From: Zestosphaera sp.
GTDB taxonomy: Archaea; Thermoproteota; Thermoprotei_A; Sulfolobales; NBVN01
Direction: 5' to 3'
DNA: 45,208 nucleotides
NCBI GenBank assembly: GCA_038843015.1
Contig: JAWBSH010000010.1
Location: forward strand, 1-45,208
The position numbers and the translations under genes are program-made. The notes below the pieces were generated by a model, which was given only the letters and a program-made list of their open reading frames with translations, did no database searches and was not told where the DNA came from. Shown here piece after piece: positions 5,249-45,190 of this stretch (positions are counted from its first letter, which is position 1; every line of letters starts with the position of its first letter).

Positions 5249-6112
5249 TTGAGCAGGAGAGGCTCTGTCTCTGTTCTTGCTTACCTCATGTTTTTATGTA
5301 TTATTATTCATTACATGTCAGCGACTCCAGCGGTAAATGCTCAGACGCAAGTTCTCGATAAGTTATTAACTATAAGCAACAACGACTTAATACTAGTCTA
5401 CAATATAACTAGAACTCTCGAAGTAGTCAACGTTAGTAGCATGCCAATGAGTTATAGTGTAAAGCAGGAATACATGATTAGAGTTAAGGTAGTCAACGAC
5501 ACTCACGTATTCGTCCAGGGATTCAGATTCCCTGAGTCAGAAATATACTTAACACTCAGCAGTTCTAATTGGGTAGGTATAGGAGGACTTATTTACTGGA
5601 TCCTCAGCAACTACACAGACTTCCTAGCAAAGAATATCTTGCCCGAGTATAACACTACTATAAATAAGAGACTTGCAACCGATTTCATGAATTCTGTGTT
5701 TGTTTTGCCTATACTAAGCGGGGAGGCTTCAGGTACTTGCACGAACATCCCGATAGGCGGCGCTTACATAAGCGGCTTTAAAGCAGTGATTTCTACGAGC
5801 TTAGGTAGCGGCAACGCCTATTACGACTGCAAGTACGGGATCCTTTTTAAAGCATACATAACCAAAACGATTCACCAGAGTTCAGTAAACACTACACACT
5901 TAATTAAAGACTCAGTAAATCTAGAACTTCACAGAGCCAACACAGAAATACTAAACGAGATAGTTATTAAGGAGCGTGTTTGGAGCCTCTATGACATCTT
6001 AATTTACGTAGTTCCCGCGACTTCTGTAGCGGTAGCTACAACTGCAGTCCTCATTTATGTATTAAAGATTAGGAGAAAGCCTATAGTAAGTGACCAGTCG
6101 GCTAGCAGGTGA
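5249..6112 (+). CDS. Secreted, C-terminally membrane-anchored protein of unknown function
   Basis: About 287 residues. The N-terminus is a clear signal peptide (hydrophobic core about residues 8-23, ending 'AVNA' before 'QTQ'). The outer domain of about 220 residues has several N-x-S/T glycosylation sequons and two cysteines (in 'GTCTN' and 'YYDCKY') that could form a disulfide. Near the C-terminus 'ILIYVVPATSVAVATTAVLIYVL' is a transmembrane anchor followed by the basic cytoplasmic tail 'KIRRKP'. It should stand on the cell surface. TTG 5249 fits a GGGTG site 5 nt upstream and gives the cleanest signal peptide; GTG 5237 in the same frame is the alternative and would be nearly leaderless. No family recognised. 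The gene's stop codon overlaps the ribosome binding site of endonuclease III. Confidence 0.65.
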   Translation: MSRRGSVSVLAYLMFLCIIIHYMSATPAVNAQTQVLDKLLTISNNDLILVYNITRTLEVVNVSSMPMSYSVKQEYMIRVKVVNDTHVFVQGFRFPESEIYLTLSSSNWVGIGGLIYWILSNYTDFLAKNILPEYNTTINKRLATDFMNSVFVLPILSGEASGTCTNIPIGGAYISGFKAVISTSLGSGNAYYDCKYGILFKAYITKTIHQSSVNTTHLIKDSVNLELHRANTEILNEIVIKERVWSLYDILIYVVPATSVAVATTAVLIYVLKIRRKPIVSDQSASR

Positions 6113-6118
6113 TTACAT

Positions 6119-6796
6119 CTGAAGAACTTAAGTCTAATAGTAGACAAGCTGATTGCTAAGTATTCAAGCATGTTAGAAGATGACTCGTTTATCCCAACTA
6201 AAGCTAGGAAAGCTTCTTTAAGCCCTCTAGAATCCTTAATAGGAATAATACTCTCACAAAACTCTACAGATAAGAACGCGTGGAAAGCTCTTGAGAATCT
6301 GATTAAGTATTATGGTGGTAGAGTTACTGCAGAAAAAATAAGTAGTACTGACTTGAGAGTCTTGGAGTCGCTGATAAAGCCAGCAGGCATTTACAGGTCT
6401 AAAGCTAGAGCTATTAAAAACCTTGTGTTAGTCTTGAGGGAAGAAGAATTAACTTCTCTAGACGCTAGTAAGTTAAAAGAAAAACTAGCTCTCGTACGTG
6501 GTGTAGGGCCGAAAACCATAGATGTCTTCTTGGCTAGCGTGCGCGGCGTGCCCACCTTCCCTATAGACACGCACATCAGGAGAATCCTCTACAGGCTTGG
6601 AGTGATAGATAAGAGGATTGAAAAGTATGAGAAGATTAGGTCTGTGGTAATGAGTCAAGTACCGCCAGATAAGCTCCTGACGACTCACTACGTGTTAATA
6701 ATTCACGGAAGGACTACATGTAAGGCTAGAAAACCGCGGTGTGCTGAATGCCCAGTAGAAGACTTGTGTGAGAAGAGAGGAGTTAGTTTCTGTTGA
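6119..6796 (+). CDS. nth: Endonuclease III (HhH-GPD, 4Fe-4S), probable CTG start
   Basis: A DNA glycosylase/AP lyase that removes oxidised pyrimidines in base excision repair. 'LVRGVGPKTIDVFL' is the helix-hairpin-helix with the catalytic lysine. 'TFPIDTHIRRIL' carries the conserved aspartate. The C-terminus has the cluster pattern Cx6Cx2Cx5C ('CKARKPRCAECPVEDLC'). The first ATG in frame is 6170, but the 17 upstream codons encode a typical N-terminal helix of this family ('LSLIVDKLIAKYSS'), and a perfect AGGTGATT site at 6107-6114 stands 7 nt before CTG 6119. No ATG, GTG or TTG lies between. I therefore extend the gene to CTG. The site overlaps the stop codon (6110-6112) of the preceding gene, which points to translational coupling. 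Function is certain, the start less so. Confidence 0.88.
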   Translation: MKNLSLIVDKLIAKYSSMLEDDSFIPTKARKASLSPLESLIGIILSQNSTDKNAWKALENLIKYYGGRVTAEKISSTDLRVLESLIKPAGIYRSKARAIKNLVLVLREEELTSLDASKLKEKLALVRGVGPKTIDVFLASVRGVPTFPIDTHIRRILYRLGVIDKRIEKYEKIRSVVMSQVPPDKLLTTHYVLIIHGRTTCKARKPRCAECPVEDLCEKRGVSFC

Positions 6797-34563: not shown

Positions 34564-35172
34564 CTGAACAACCTCAATCACACTAATAAGAAGTTCGCAT
34601 ACTCACTAACAGCGCTTTTAGTTTGCTACCTCATTTTAGTGAACGTAGCTATTGCCGAGAACAACAGCCTAACGAGATATAGCTTAATAACATTCGGTTC
34701 TAAAACCTGTCCCTTCTGCAAAGCCTTACACGACTTCTTTGACAGTAATTACAAAGATAAATACTACTTCTTCTGGATTGAGGATAACAAAGGGGCGAAT
34801 CTCTTATCTAAGTTAATTATGATAGAGATTAGGTACGGACTAAGTGAAAAATCCGCTAATGCGGTACCGCATACGATGGTTCTTGTCAACGGATCTCCGG
34901 TAGCTGTAGTGATAGGAGGAGTAGCAGATACTGAGTTCTGGGATAGACTTATATCAAGTAACGTAACTGACGTGGTCGTAGTATATCTTGAAGAAACTAG
35001 ATCAGGTATTGAAATACCTGTCAGCTCACTCACTAGTTTTCTCTCAGAGTTAGAGAGTGCTCTTACTCAGCCTGACCAACCACAACAAAGCATTAACCTG
35101 GCAGGATTGACCCTCATTATAATCGGTGTGGCTCTCCTCGTATTCTATCTTGTTAAGCGTAGAGCTTCGTAA
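34564..35172 (+). CDS. Secreted membrane-anchored thioredoxin-like protein, probable CTG start
   Basis: About 202 residues. After a signal peptide comes a thioredoxin-like domain: 'YSLITFGSKTCPFCKALHDFF' with the redox motif CPFC, and 'VPHTMVLVNGSPV' with the cis-proline region. The C-terminus has a transmembrane helix ('LAGLTLIIIGVALLVFYLV') and 'KRRAS' inside. It should act as an outer-face disulfide reductase or oxidase. The first ordinary start, GTG 34639, lies inside the signal peptide. The upstream codons from CTG 34564 encode a full one (basic 'TNKK', core 'SLTALLVCYLILV', 'AIA' cleavage site); a stop codon at 34546 excludes earlier starts, and no ATG/GTG/TTG occurs between. A TATA-like ACTTTAATAC at 34531-34540 predicts transcription starting at about 34562. 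Confidence 0.75.
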   Translation: MNNLNHTNKKFAYSLTALLVCYLILVNVAIAENNSLTRYSLITFGSKTCPFCKALHDFFDSNYKDKYYFFWIEDNKGANLLSKLIMIEIRYGLSEKSANAVPHTMVLVNGSPVAVVIGGVADTEFWDRLISSNVTDVVVVYLEETRSGIEIPVSSLTSFLSELESALTQPDQPQQSINLAGLTLIIIGVALLVFYLVKRRAS

Positions 35173-39242: not shown

Positions 39243-40028
39243 CTACTTACTTAATGTTTTCAGTATTTCTTCAGCTACTTTCTTACCCGAGAGTAGCATG
39301 CCACTAAATATGGGTCCCATCCTGTGGAGGTGTTTTAGCGTGGCGACAGCCATTCCAGCCACGTAAAGACCTTCAACAACCTTGCCAGTCATTTCAACGA
39401 CTTTCAGTTCACTTAATTCCGAGTAAGCAGACCTCTCACCAGGTAACCTAATACCTACAGAGGGGTTTTTCTTCTCAATTATTTTGAGGACTTCAGCGTC
39501 ATGCCCTGTAGCGTCTACTACGGTCTTAGAGTAGATGAAGAGAGGGTCTACGTGTAGTCCTGCTAGAGACACAGCACTCCACTGTATCACTACACCCTCA
39601 ACCCTGAATGGTTCCTCACGAACTATTAAGTCTTCGACTGTGACGCCGTGTATTATCTTAGCTCCAGCATCTATAGCTCCGGTTGCTAGTTTTGCCATGA
39701 GTTCGGAAGAGTCTAGCACGTAGAGGTCGTAATCACTCATGTAATCGTATCTAATATTAAATTCTCTCAGTATGGGCAGAGCTCTCGCGTCAACTACTAT
39801 CTTGTGCAGTAACATCCCGCCACCCCCTATGCCTCCGCCAAAGCTTAACCTCCTCTCCAACACTACAGTCTTGAGACCTGAGCTCGCTAGGTATTTAGCG
39901 GCTGTAAGGCCTGAGGGACCCGCACCAACTACCACGACGTCTGTGTTTACTAGTTTTAGCCAGTCGTCCGCAGTAGCTCTCCATATAGCTTTAGAAATTC
40001 TTGACTCTAGAGGCTCCGTTTTACTCAC
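39243..40028 (-). CDS. thi4: Thi4 thiazole synthase, sulfide-dependent (His) type
   Basis: 261 residues. Makes the thiazole phosphate precursor of thiamine from NAD and glycine. '[19 protein letters not shown]' and '[25 protein letters not shown]' are the FAD/NAD-binding Thi4 motifs, '[36 protein letters not shown]' the C-terminal one. At the position where yeast Thi4 has its sacrificial cysteine the sequence reads 'LAGLHVDPL', i.e. histidine, as in methanogen enzymes that use free sulfide as sulfur donor and act catalytically. GTG 40028 is likely leaderless. Divergent from thiDN. Confidence 0.93.
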
Positions 40029-40085
40029 CAGTACTCAATTATCACTAAAGAATAAAAACCTTAATAATTAAGTTTTACTGGTGAG
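40024..40085. promoter_or_regulatory. Two-way thi promoter: shared TATA and 10-bp inverted repeats over both starts
   Basis: CTCACCAGTA (40024-40033) and TACTGGTGAG (40076-40085) are exact inverted copies lying right at the start codons of thi4 and thiDN. AATAAAAA (40051-40058) is centred at 40054.5, exactly midway between GTG 40028 and GTG 40081, so one TATA element can drive both, leaderless. The repeats could be operator half-sites for a thiamine regulator. Confidence 0.55.
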
Positions 40086-41506: not shown

Positions 41507-41896
41507 TTACTGCTCACGAGTCCTTAAGTTTACGTAGGGGTTGTAATCTAGTGTTTGTGTTACTTCGTTTAACCAGTTTAAGACCCATAGTGAGGAAGGC
41601 TTTAAAACTTCGGGGAGTCCCGTGCTACGCCCCAACATAGACTTAATATGGTGCTTAACCGCCGCAACTGCTGCGGCAACTTCCTGAGTAGTTAGTGCTT
41701 CTCTCTCTTCTGGTCCCTCTCTATCAGTTAACACTTCCCTGACTCCTGGCGTCGGGGCGGGCGCAGGAGCCTTTGCTCTCTTCTCTATAACTAACCACCT
41801 ATAGAAGTAAAGTATGATGACTACTATAGCGAGGATTAAGAAAGCATTTAGTAGTCCCAGAATCGCAGGCAGTAATCCCTCACTTAATGAAGTCAG
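41507..41896 (-). CDS. OadG-like gamma subunit of a sodium-pumping decarboxylase, probable CTG start
   Basis: 129 residues. N-terminal transmembrane helix ('AILGLLNAFLILAIVVIILYFY'), a Lys/Ala/Pro linker ('EKRAKAPAPAPTPGVRE'), then 'LTTQEVAAAVAAVKHHI' and 'SSLWVLNWLNEV', the build of OadG/MmdD subunits, which anchor biotin-dependent decarboxylases. The first ordinary start in frame is GTG 41734, which would delete the whole membrane helix. CTG 41896 lies 7 nt behind a perfect AGGTGAT (41908-41902) and directly behind in-frame TAG TAA stops, so it is the only sensible start. The alpha and beta subunits are not in the window. Confidence 0.75.
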   Translation of the reverse strand: MTSLSEGLLPAILGLLNAFLILAIVVIILYFYRWLVIEKRAKAPAPAPTPGVREVLTDREGPEEREALTTQEVAAAVAAVKHHIKSMLGRSTGLPEVLKPSSLWVLNWLNEVTQTLDYNPYVNLRTREQ

Positions 41897-41980
41897 TTAC
41901 TATCACCTAATTAAACTCAACACATTAACTAATAAAAATCTTAGGATCTTCTTGGTTTCCGAAACACTCAAAGTTCTTGT

Positions 41981-42631
41981 TTAGGAACCTACTACCCTGT
42001 ACTTGATTTCCCTGTAGAACGAGCTCCTCGCCAGCTTATTCTCATCTACCACTATCATGTGTATGTATGTCGCTACAGCTAAAATAACGTAAGTTTGAGT
42101 CATCACAAGTACAGTCAGGGGAGATAGCAAGTATCCTGCAGGATACACCGCAGAGACCTTGGAAGCGCCTAAGTATAGAACCCCTGCTGAAGTCACTTGA
42201 TTTAAATTTATGCTTAGCTGTGTCACGACCGCTGATAATACCTTAATAATGAGTGCTAAGAAGAGTCCTGAGAAAGCCAGTATTGAGAGAGCCCCACTAA
42301 ACAACCACCTGACACCCACGTTGAAGTTTCTACCACTAAAGAATAAGTAGAGTGTTAACGCCCCCGCGAATATCAGGTACGTGCTCAACATGAGTACTAG
42401 TAAAGACAAGAAGCTCACGCTGAAGAGTGAGTCACACCTAACTGGAGTGCCGTAAAACATTAGCTCATGATGTGTTAAGGCGACATACCCCTCAATAACA
42501 CCCTCAACCACGTAGACTGGGGTTATAGCTAAGTAGATCGTGAAGAGTCCTAAAAAGACGGAGTAAGCAGAAGCTAAGACAACGAGCTTACGTAACCTCT
42601 TAACTAAAATCAATTCTTCTCTGCTCAACAA
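41981..42631 (-). CDS. Four-helix membrane protein of the surface cluster
   Basis: About 216 residues: transmembrane segments near residues 15-35, 70-95, 105-130 and 175-200, with outer loops containing 'PVYVVEGVIEGYVALTHHELMFYG' and 'NLNQVTSAGVLYLG'. No family recognised. It overlaps the end of the signal peptidase gene by about 30 nt and shares its direction, so the two are probably coupled. TTG 42631 follows AGGTG with 6 nt spacing; GTG 42640 overlaps that site. Likely a partner in export or assembly of the surface protein. Confidence 0.55.
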   Translation of the reverse strand: MLSREELILVKRLRKLVVLASAYSVFLGLFTIYLAITPVYVVEGVIEGYVALTHHELMFYGTPVRCDSLFSVSFLSLLVLMLSTYLIFAGALTLYLFFSGRNFNVGVRWLFSGALSILAFSGLFLALIIKVLSAVVTQLSINLNQVTSAGVLYLGASKVSAVYPAGYLLSPLTVLVMTQTYVILAVATYIHMIVVDENKLARSSFYREIKYRVVGS

Positions 42632-43721
42632 CTTCCTCACCTAGGAGCACGTACTTGATCATCACGTAAGCGTATTCCCCCCTACTATCCACGAGTAGCG
42701 TGTGCGTGTTTTTAGGACCTATTACGAAACTCTGGAGCTCCTCTACTTGAATCACTTTATGAATTCTTGCTTTCTCGTCATAACTCATGTAAGTTACTTT
42801 AGCGTAAGTGATGTTGATTGGTACGTAATTGGGGTTACTCAATACTAGAGAACTCCCATTGACTGAGACTCTCAGCTTACTCCAAGATATGTGTAGCGGG
42901 TAGCTACCTATCAAGAAACCCTTATCTAGTGTTAAGTTAACTAGAGTCTCGAAGCTGGTTACCCCGACTTCGTAAGCCCTCACGTAAGTCTCGGGAGGCA
43001 CTATAACCACAACACTGTCTGAGGACAGCACGTACGCTCTACACTCAATCAATTGATTAATTACCTTGATCAAGCATCCAGAGACGTTAACTATATTCAG
43101 GTGTTGAGGACTGTATCTCACTAGTATTAGTGACCCTGGATCAAGTATCTCAACACTCCTCAAACTTATAGATGGCTTGACAATTACCGTTTCTGTCGTG
43201 AAGTGATATATAGGCACTAGAGCTATTAGAGCCAAGTTAATCACCATAAAGGCTGAGAAAACTATTAGTTCTACGTCCCCGAAATCTCTCATGAGCGCTA
43301 GTATCTTCTCTTTCTCTCTAATAAGGTATAGACCCACGAACACTAGACATATAGACAGCCAGGCAATAGAGGGTACTACTAAGACTACCTTATACCTAAC
43401 ATAAGACTCAGGTATTGGAGGATCTTCAGAAGGGTTGTTATCACCTTTAGTTACTACGTAGTATCCTCTAAACTCAACTACTCTATGAACAGTGCAGTGA
43501 GTAAGGCTACTACACCAGACTACTATGTCGCCCAAGCCGTAACTAGCTATGTCTTTATGAAGACTCACGAGCAGGTCACCAGGCTTCAGAGAAGGATACA
43601 TCGAGTAACCACTAACTAGTGATAAGCTTACTGGGAAGTAAACAAACCTGCTAAGCAGTATTAAAGCAAACAAAAACAACACGACAATCAAGGTAATAAG
43701 ATGTGTAGAACCGCGACCCAC
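42600..43721 (-). CDS. Signal peptidase I with extra membrane helices and outer domain (SipW-like context)
   Basis: About 373 residues. N-terminal anchor 'LITLIVVLFLFALILL', catalytic serine in 'VSGYSMYPSLKPGDLLV', histidine in 'HCTVHRVVEF' (the Ser-His form of archaeal/ER and SipW-type enzymes), aspartate in 'VTKGDNNPSEDP'. After the catalytic domain come two more membrane helices ('VVPSIAWLSICLVFVGLYLI' and 'ELIVFSAFMVINLALIALVPIY') and about 170 outer residues of beta-rich sequence I cannot assign. The usual archaeal enzyme is only about 160-200 residues. GTG 43721 is 5 nt behind a GGTG site overlapping the LamG gene stop; an open frame continues upstream to 43784 but is unlikely to be used. 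Probably dedicated to the neighbouring surface protein. Confidence 0.8.
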   Translation of the reverse strand: MGRGSTHLITLIVVLFLFALILLSRFVYFPVSLSLVSGYSMYPSLKPGDLLVSLHKDIASYGLGDIVVWCSSLTHCTVHRVVEFRGYYVVTKGDNNPSEDPPIPESYVRYKVVLVVPSIAWLSICLVFVGLYLIREKEKILALMRDFGDVELIVFSAFMVINLALIALVPIYHFTTETVIVKPSISLRSVEILDPGSLILVRYSPQHLNIVNVSGCLIKVINQLIECRAYVLSSDSVVVIVPPETYVRAYEVGVTSFETLVNLTLDKGFLIGSYPLHISWSKLRVSVNGSSLVLSNPNYVPINITYAKVTYMSYDEKARIHKVIQVEELQSFVIGPKNTHTLLVDSRGEYAYVMIKYVLLGEEVVEQRRIDFS

Positions 43722-43723
43722 CC

Positions 43724-45190
43724 TCACACCCCCAGAGTGACTGGATAGTAAACACAGACACTCTTGAGTTGTGGATCGACACAATAAACGAGTTCTAGGT
43801 ATAGTCTTGAGGAGTTATTAGTTGATTCTTTACTAGCCTCAATACTCACCTTAAGACTAGTACTCGAGTCAATCTTAATTAAGCTAGTCTCAACAGGCCC
43901 TGCAGGCGGTGAGGCACCACTAATTAACAGAGAGTCGCTGCTCGTGCCGTTAGAGACTTCTATTACTAGCTCCAGGTCTGGCTGAATTAAGGAGTGCCCA
44001 GGGTATAGGATGATCCCTGCATAATAAGGGGTCGTGTCATCAACTGATACCGCGCTGAGAACAACTGTCTTAGGTAGTTTTAGCTGGTAAGTAGAGAAAA
44101 GTATTTGAATCTCGGCTCGCGTGTCCTCATCATAGAAGGTAGTGATTATCCTGTGAACTACCAACGCATAAGTATCACTCCCTACTATAGAGTCAACGAA
44201 GTTCTTGGCTAGGCATAAGTTGCCGCTAGCGTCGTAAATTCTGAAGACTCCTCCCCAACCCCTACCAACGACTGCGTCACTCAAGACGTTTAGGTTAGTT
44301 GTGCTACCAGATGACGTAGCTTCAGCTACTTTATTGCCTAAGTCATCATATAAACTTAGAGTAAAGCCTTGAGGCGCTCCCTCAACATAGACGTAACGCG
44401 AGTCTGAAACAGAGACTACGAAATCATCGAATACCGCCTGCCCACCATCAACATCCACGCCAACACGAGACGGGATGAAGTATCTGCCACCACTCACACT
44501 AACACTCCCTGAAGCAAGAACACTACCATCGACACTATACACTACCGCCGAGATGTAGTTAGTCGACGTTGCCGCGCTCCTACTGTAGTTAATGTAGAGA
44601 ATAAACCAGCGGTCAGTAGGAGCAGGGAAAGACGTAGCACTCCTATATAGACTTGTCCAACTCCTACCATTATAATACCAGATATCTAGATATCCTGTAT
44701 TGCCAGTCACGTAAACACTTATCTCGTAAAGTCTAGACGAGGTAGTAGGTTGCTGGAGAAGCGAGACCCCCATCCACATCGTAGTACCAGAGTACCTGCG
44801 AACCTTAACAGAAGCACTCAACCACTCATAAGAAGATATTGAGGAATCCCAGTAATAAACTGAGGAGCCGCCTGGACCTCCATTATCATCTACTCCTAAG
44901 AGGCCATTACCCTTATAGCCAGAAGCAATAGCCCAAGAACCACCCAGCCGCCCCCACCCGCTAGGCAGAGACTCGAAATCACTGAAGACTAGTGAAGACC
45001 TCCTAGAACGTATTACGTCAACACAAACAAAGAAATCGTTAAGACCACTAAAAACCACGGGCGGGGACTGAGGATAAAAAACAGCTTGAACAGGGTAAAA
45101 AACATAGACAGACGTATAGCAAACATTAAGGAAACTCAGTAAGAAAATTATAGAGACAAAAAGAACACGTAGACTTAACCAACCATTCAT
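43724..45190 (-). CDS. Secreted LamG-like (jelly-roll) surface protein
   Basis: 488 residues. Signal peptide at residues about 7-26 ('LRVLFVSIIFLLSFLNVCYT'), no C-terminal anchor. Residues about 65-245 look like a concanavalin/LamG-type jelly roll: 'VFSDFESLPSGWGRLGGSWAIASG' at the start, 'SVKVRRYSGTTMWMGVSLL' in the middle, 'VGVDVDGGQAVFDDFVVS' at the end. Then come beta-rich segments ('GFTLSLYDDLGNKVAEATS' and beyond). Rich in Ser, Thr, Tyr and Val, as in extracellular archaeal filament or adhesin proteins. ATG 45190 has AGGGTG with 5 nt spacing. The signal peptidase gene begins 2 nt after its stop, so it is likely the substrate of that enzyme. Confidence 0.7.
   Translation of the reverse strand: MNGWLSLRVLFVSIIFLLSFLNVCYTSVYVFYPVQAVFYPQSPPVVFSGLNDFFVCVDVIRSRRSSLVFSDFESLPSGWGRLGGSWAIASGYKGNGLLGVDDNGGPGGSSVYYWDSSISSYEWLSASVKVRRYSGTTMWMGVSLLQQPTTSSRLYEISVYVTGNTGYLDIWYYNGRSWTSLYRSATSFPAPTDRWFILYINYSRSAATSTNYISAVVYSVDGSVLASGSVSVSGGRYFIPSRVGVDVDGGQAVFDDFVVSVSDSRYVYVEGAPQGFTLSLYDDLGNKVAEATSSGSTTNLNVLSDAVVGRGWGGVFRIYDASGNLCLAKNFVDSIVGSDTYALVVHRIITTFYDEDTRAEIQILFSTYQLKLPKTVVLSAVSVDDTTPYYAGIILYPGHSLIQPDLELVIEVSNGTSSDSLLISGASPPAGPVETSLIKIDSSTSLKVSIEASKESTNNSSRLYLELVYCVDPQLKSVCVYYPVTLGV

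Follow-up and report, generated by a model that had tools for sequence, protein, structure and literature searches.

It is very probable that an OadG/MmdD-type gene on the minus strand of the window, the 45,208-nucleotide stretch of DNA analysed here, starts at the CTG codon at position 41896 by near-cognate initiation guided by a Shine-Dalgarno (SD) sequence, and that initiation of this kind is a habit of the lineage. Across the Zestosphaera family (Thermoproteota), CTG and ACG probably act as standing start codons, each for a few percent of the SD-led genes. Both readings are drawn from sequence comparison, namely the start position in orthologues, the SD, a codon-specific excess and conservation. 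The window makes up contig 10 of the draft genome, 1.55 Mb in 20 contigs, of a hot-spring archaeon.

Start region of the OadG-like gene

The start region reads, on the minus strand, TTTAATTAGGTGATAGTAACTGACTTC; ...TTTAATT AGGTGAT AGTAA CTG ACT TCA..., and its features are collected in Table 1. The preliminary description had placed the CTG 7 nt behind AGGTGAT and directly after in-frame TAG and TAA. Codon, SD and stops were all found as described, TGA being the first of the three stop codons, but the 7 nt count from AGGTG and the distance from AGGTGAT is 5 nt. The 16S rRNA of the window genome ends in GGATCACCTCCTTTG, to which AGGTGAT is complementary, and the spacing of 7 falls within 5-9 nt. 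Of 1940 CTG codons lying in the 3' half of a gene, only 16 are preceded at spacing 4-10 by an SD match of as many as 6 bases; CTG 41896 has 7, so the SD at this position is beyond chance. From the TATA-like element upstream, transcription would be expected to begin near 41908.

Between 41896 and GTG 41734 the window translation contains no ATG, GTG or TTG in frame. A mechanical ORF list accordingly reports the 75-aa ORF 41507-41734, which is the headless fragment that the preliminary description expected from any caller limited to ATG, GTG and TTG. The 129-residue protein read from the CTG begins LTSLSEGLLPAILGLLNAFLILAIVVIILYFYRWLVIEKRAKAPAPAPTPG..., and its 54-codon extension contains a transmembrane helix (PAILGLLNAFLILAIVVIILYFY; assigned by eye from the translation) and an Ala/Pro linker (KAPAPAPTPG), in agreement with that description.

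Table 1. Positions of the OadG-like gene, its start region and the other CTG-start candidates in the window
Feature	Position	Strand	Remarks
OadG-like (sodium-pump decarboxylase gamma subunit) gene	41507..41896	-	129 codons from CTG; stop TAA 41509-41507
Proposed CTG start codon	41894..41896	-	aligned relatives: TTG (G001), GTG (G002), ATG (G003)
Shine-Dalgarno (SD) AGGTGAT	41902..41908	-	7-base match to 16S 3' end (..GGATCACCTCC..)
In-frame stops TGA TAG TAA	41897..41905	-	immediately 5' of CTG
TATA-like TTTTTATT	41931..41938	-	kept in G001 (upstream DNA alignment)
Single transmembrane helix	41801..41866	-	residues 11-32 of CTG-start protein
Ala/Pro-rich linker AKAPAPAPTPG	41744..41776	-	from translation
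First canonical in-frame start, GTG	41732..41734	-	yields headless 75-aa ORF 41507-41734
Second in-frame CTG, rival start	41870..41872	-	helix retained; SD match 4 bases; relatives TTG/GTG/TTG
Endonuclease III-like (HhH-GPD) gene	6119..6796	+	proposed CTG start 6119-6121
SD AGGTGAT of 6119 gene	6107..6113	+	overlaps TGA of upstream gene
Secreted thioredoxin-like gene	34564..35172	+	possible CTG start 34564; signal peptide retained; SD weak

Orthologues and the position of the start

Orthologues from three genomes of the same genus (G001, G002 and G003) were aligned at the start, and OadG orthologues are also present in G005; an OadG scan of the genome contigs found no relatives. In G001, the nearest relative, AGGTGGTGATAA-TTG puts the TTG exactly in the CTG column, and the same column holds the start codon of GGTGGATCGA-GTG in G002 and of GGTGGTTCGG-ATG in G003. 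An SD stands before each of the three. Comparison with related genomes, which the preliminary description had suggested, thus finds canonical starts at the column of the CTG, in support of its claim that the gene starts there. Window genome and G001 also have in common the gene order thiDN-oadG with membrane-protein gene neighbours, and the TATA-like element and the SD upstream of the gene are conserved between them.

Translation could in principle begin at the second CTG, at 41872, for instance if ribosomes reinitiate there once an 8-codon GTG frame (41906-41880) has been read. This codon is preceded by GAGG, the relatives have start-like codons aligned with it as well, and the window genome and G001 have in common the TGA that closes the short GTG frame. 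We nevertheless regard a start at 41872 as very unlikely. Its SD match is 4 bases against 7; the first position is ATG in G003 and GTG in G002, both with good SDs; G002 lacks the short GTG frame; and the conserved residues S/T-E-G/A precede the second CTG.

Between the window genome and G001 the 54-codon extension shows a dN of 0.14 and a dS of 0.65, the first, second and third codon positions differing 11, 3 and 11 times, respectively. The dN and dS values indicate that the extension evolves as coding sequence under purifying selection. It is therefore barely credible that the gene encodes a headless 75-aa soluble protein starting at GTG 41734, or that it has decayed, even though this is what an ATG/GTG/TTG gene caller puts out: the extension is conserved, the helix is present in every aligned orthologue, and the 7-base SD at 41908 precedes the CTG.

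Family assignment and possible function

The CTG-start protein matches Pfam OAD_gamma (PF04277) over residues 6-83 with 28.2 bits (cut-off 27). The 75-aa form, from which the extension is absent, gave no match in the Pfam search, so the family match exists only with the additional 54 codons. Against NCBIfam TIGR01195 the protein scores 17.3, below the cut-off of 36.05; the G002 and G003 orthologues lie under the Pfam reporting level, and the match to a solved OAD gamma chain, 6iva_B, is weak (E = 0.73). Like the OadG/MmdD gamma subunits of Na+-translocating decarboxylases, the protein has one N-terminal helix, an Ala/Pro linker and a soluble tail, but its conserved C-terminal tail is longer than theirs (WVLNWLNEVTQxLDYNPY). 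In five relatives (G012, G020, G023, G024 and G032) the OadG match and OadB are at most about 1.5 kb apart, whereas the window gene stands alone beside thiDN, with OadB (C2:127470) and a carboxyltransferase (Carboxyl_trans, C3:153200) elsewhere in the window genome. In known complexes the helix of OadG anchors the subunit to OadB. Since it is this helix that the canonical annotation loses, the CTG would be needed for a working subunit.

In the same part of the window, at 42600-43784, lies a 394-aa gene with an N-terminal archaeal signal-peptidase I domain, whose long C-terminal part matches no family. It is followed by a gene for another membrane protein.

Other CTG candidates in the window

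The preliminary description counted three CTG starts in 45 kb. Two of these, at 41896 and 6119, are borne out by orthologues, while the third, at 34564, is plausible only. At the start column of the 6119 gene, CTG is also present in G001 (GGTGATAGTGTCTG), TTG in G004 and in G003 (AGGTGAATACGTTG), GTG in G002 and ATG in G005. As two separate assemblies have this CTG in common, a base-call error can be discounted there, and the sequence comparison confirms CTG as the start of the gene.

For the thioredoxin-like gene the orthologue in G001 reads GGTGAGTGATC-ATG, and that in G004 reads GGTGAGTGATCA-CTG behind GGTGA, with a signal peptide and without a canonical start before it. The G004 gene (G004:C13:34117, L032) has its CTG in the ATG column of G001, with the same GGTGAGTGATC leader. 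In the window itself the SD at 34564 is weak and badly spaced, and for this reason a CTG start there is left as plausible.

A further gene, thi4 (39243-40028, in the stretch 39243-40034), reads GTG AGT AAA ACG behind GGTGA, with ATG at the ACG column in G001; a one-base leader difference brings the SD's own GTG into frame. It was left out of the clean ACG cases because of this in-frame GTG 9 nt upstream.

Start codons across the sampled genomes

The survey covered stretches adding up to 1.18 Mb for the window genome (G000, about 76%) and, for three relatives in the Zestosphaera family, to 1.53 Mb (G001 0.33 Mb, G002 0.80 Mb and G005, Zestosphaera tikiterensis, 0.40 Mb). Genes were taken as stop-to-stop frames, and a strong SD was defined as six or more consecutive bases of GGAGGTGATC, the complement of the 16S 3' end, located 5-9 nt before a codon within the first 12 codons. 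Expected counts were obtained from codon use in the 3' halves of genes. The p-values are Poisson tails for one codon each, uncorrected for 61 codons; the two leading pooled values would withstand that correction by a wide margin. We set the thresholds ourselves and varied them, with SD runs of 5, 6 or 7 and zones of 12 or 30 codons; under each, CTG ranks first in the window genome. A strict set was limited to genes whose frame contains no canonical codon at any point upstream. At an SD spacing of 6 or 9 the GTG within AGGTG falls in frame and may itself serve as the start, which affects several CTG and ACG genes, though not 41896 or 6119 (spacing 7), and the strict count leaves these cases out. 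As a positive control TTG was treated as unknown and was found 91 times against 5.4 expected, which indicates that the method works. An initial comparison of 5' with 3' counts, in which the SD was loosely defined, was no more than suggestive, and frame-blind counts of SD plus codon were dropped as too noisy.

Strong-SD genes of the window genome include 161 with ATG, GTG or TTG at working distance and 66 without. Behind the 66 orphan SDs CTG occurs 12 times (1.14 expected, p=4e-9) and ACG 7 times (1.03 expected, p=1e-4). In the pool of four genomes the counts behind orphan strong SDs are 20 for CTG (3.8 expected, p=4e-9) and 17 for ACG (2.9 expected, p=2e-8), and in the strict set 13 (1.7 expected) and 8 (1.3 expected). 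ACG is the top enriched codon in G002 and G005, and G001 alone, a small sample of 0.33 Mb, shows no significant excess. Four decoy motifs put in place of the SD gave no comparable excess of CTG or ACG in the pool. Taken as the excess over expectation divided by the canonical strong-SD genes (161 in the window genome, 350 in the pool), the rough shares are 4-6% for CTG and 3-4% for ACG. The 5- to 10-fold excess of CTG behind orphan strong SDs, together with its sharing between species, upholds the proposal of the preliminary description that CTG initiation is regular in this lineage; the genome-wide count named there as a possible refutation shows the excess. Use of ACG, behind strong SDs about as enriched as CTG in the four-genome pool, is absent from that description.

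Other leucine codons behind orphan SDs are flat (CTA 0 vs 5.4, CTC 3 vs 5.1 and CTT 2 vs 4.4 expected), and the threonine codon ACA is not enriched either (1 vs 3.2), so the excess is specific to the codon and not to the residue. Further near-cognates remain close to or below expectation (AAG 4 vs 9.3, AGG 8 vs 6.6 and ATT 4 vs 4.1), with a weak excess of ATC (8 vs 3.6). When CTG and ACG are removed from the strict set, TTT (5 vs 0.9) and ATA (8 vs 3.0) are in weak excess, which is probably noise.

C-to-U editing is known in some archaeal tRNAs, and a single such change before translation would make both enriched codons canonical starts, CTG becoming UUG and ACG becoming AUG. Editing predicts the same excess for GCG (to GUG) and TCG (to UUG). 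Neither is enriched (3 vs 3.2 and 3 vs 1.7, respectively), and we therefore reject editing as highly improbable.

Individual CTG and ACG genes

The CTG at 41896 itself is present in one assembly only, that of the window genome. With a draft in 20 contigs and TTG at this column in the nearest relative, it could be asked whether the true codon is TTG (or ATG or GTG) and the CTG a base-call or assembly artefact. Such an error appears quite unlikely: CTG recurs at many genes with a 10-fold excess, errors would not prefer CTG and ACG to the one-base changes ATA, AAG and AGG, and independent assemblies of different species share the CTG at genes #29, #186, #268 and #357. At #357 it is found in G000, G001 and G002. 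The sequencing error that the preliminary description had named as a possible refutation is thus countered at several genes by a shared CTG. At #611, which has a 9-base SD, and at #874 the CTG is aligned with TTG.

The proposed users of CTG or ACG include a RuBisCO, a dicarboxylate symporter and an Obg-like GTPase. In the Obg-like GTPase (#268, CTG) the next canonical start lies inside the P-loop region; in the SDF symporter (ACG) it lies 28 codons on, within helix 1; and in a nucleotidyltransferase (ACG) 55 codons on, beyond the GSxxRG motif. The RuBisCO-like gene of Zestosphaera tikiterensis (L169:17751-16432; G005:C14:96432-97751) has no ATG, GTG or TTG before codon 29 and likely starts at an ACG behind GAGGTGA. 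In all four, initiation at the next canonical codon would damage the protein, which favours the CTG and ACG starts. In G001 a RuBisCO homologue (G001:C52:19117-20355, L270) carries one in-frame TAG, and the same genome has a second, stop-free copy.

Possible mechanism

We suggest that the AGGTGAT SD places the 30S subunit on a short leader and that the ordinary Met initiator tRNA then reads CUG or ACG as a near-cognate with one mismatch. The mismatch may be tolerated because the SD fixes the subunit, and a protein initiated in this way would begin with Met. The OadG-like gene, presumed to be expressed, would be one case of a lineage habit in which CTG and ACG serve as starts both in the genus of the window genome and in Zestosphaera.

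The 16S anti-SD of the window genome looks normal. No special initiator tRNA was apparent in the sampled stretches, an incomplete sample in which aragorn lists one CAT-anticodon (Met) tRNA. In S. solfataricus, initiation factor aIF1 is reported to select against starts at non-canonical codons (work cited in PMC8211752). Loss of start-codon proofreading through a defect in aIF1 was considered and rejected, as the window genome has one intact copy that can be aligned over its full length with those of other members of the order, and the factor is therefore present and ordinary.

Relation to known systems and significance

CTG starts are already known and are very rare. Among 36 genome groups with 61,358 ancestral AUG starts only 2 switches to CUG were found (PMC5622118), and in Methanosarcina mazei CTG is the start in 5% of the unannotated small ORFs (PMC11456600). 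The rare prokaryotic CTG start, allowed in NCBI table 11, likewise involves CUG, the initiator Met-tRNA and an SD. The lineage of the window differs in that an estimated 4-6% of its strong-SD genes, ordinary housekeeping genes included, would start in this way, and in that the CTG is conserved between species at several genes.

In eukaryotes the efficient near-cognates are CUG and ACG, not AAG or AGG. The same two codons would be used here, and aIF1 and aIF2 are common to archaea and eukaryotes; a part for initiation factors may be envisaged. CUG is the strongest near-cognate in eukaryotes (PMC11706245). Unlike eukaryotic near-cognate use, initiation in the window lineage would be guided by an SD and would provide the main start of full-length genes. 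For archaeal initiation a review gives AUG, GUG and UUG only (PMC7531240), and the open-access literature searched, the coverage of which is incomplete, yielded no account of archaeal genes that start at ACG. If our reading is true, genome-scale ACG initiation would, as far as could be found, be new for prokaryotes.

One Zestosphaera strain has already been grown in culture, which makes N-terminal proteomics feasible. Because gene callers are built on ATG, GTG and TTG, many proteins of the group would be annotated without their true N-termini, and the annotated proteomes of the family would lose signal peptides, membrane helices and active-site residues. The group would then offer a natural system for studying how eukaryote-like initiation machinery copes with near-cognate codons while the SD fixes the frame.
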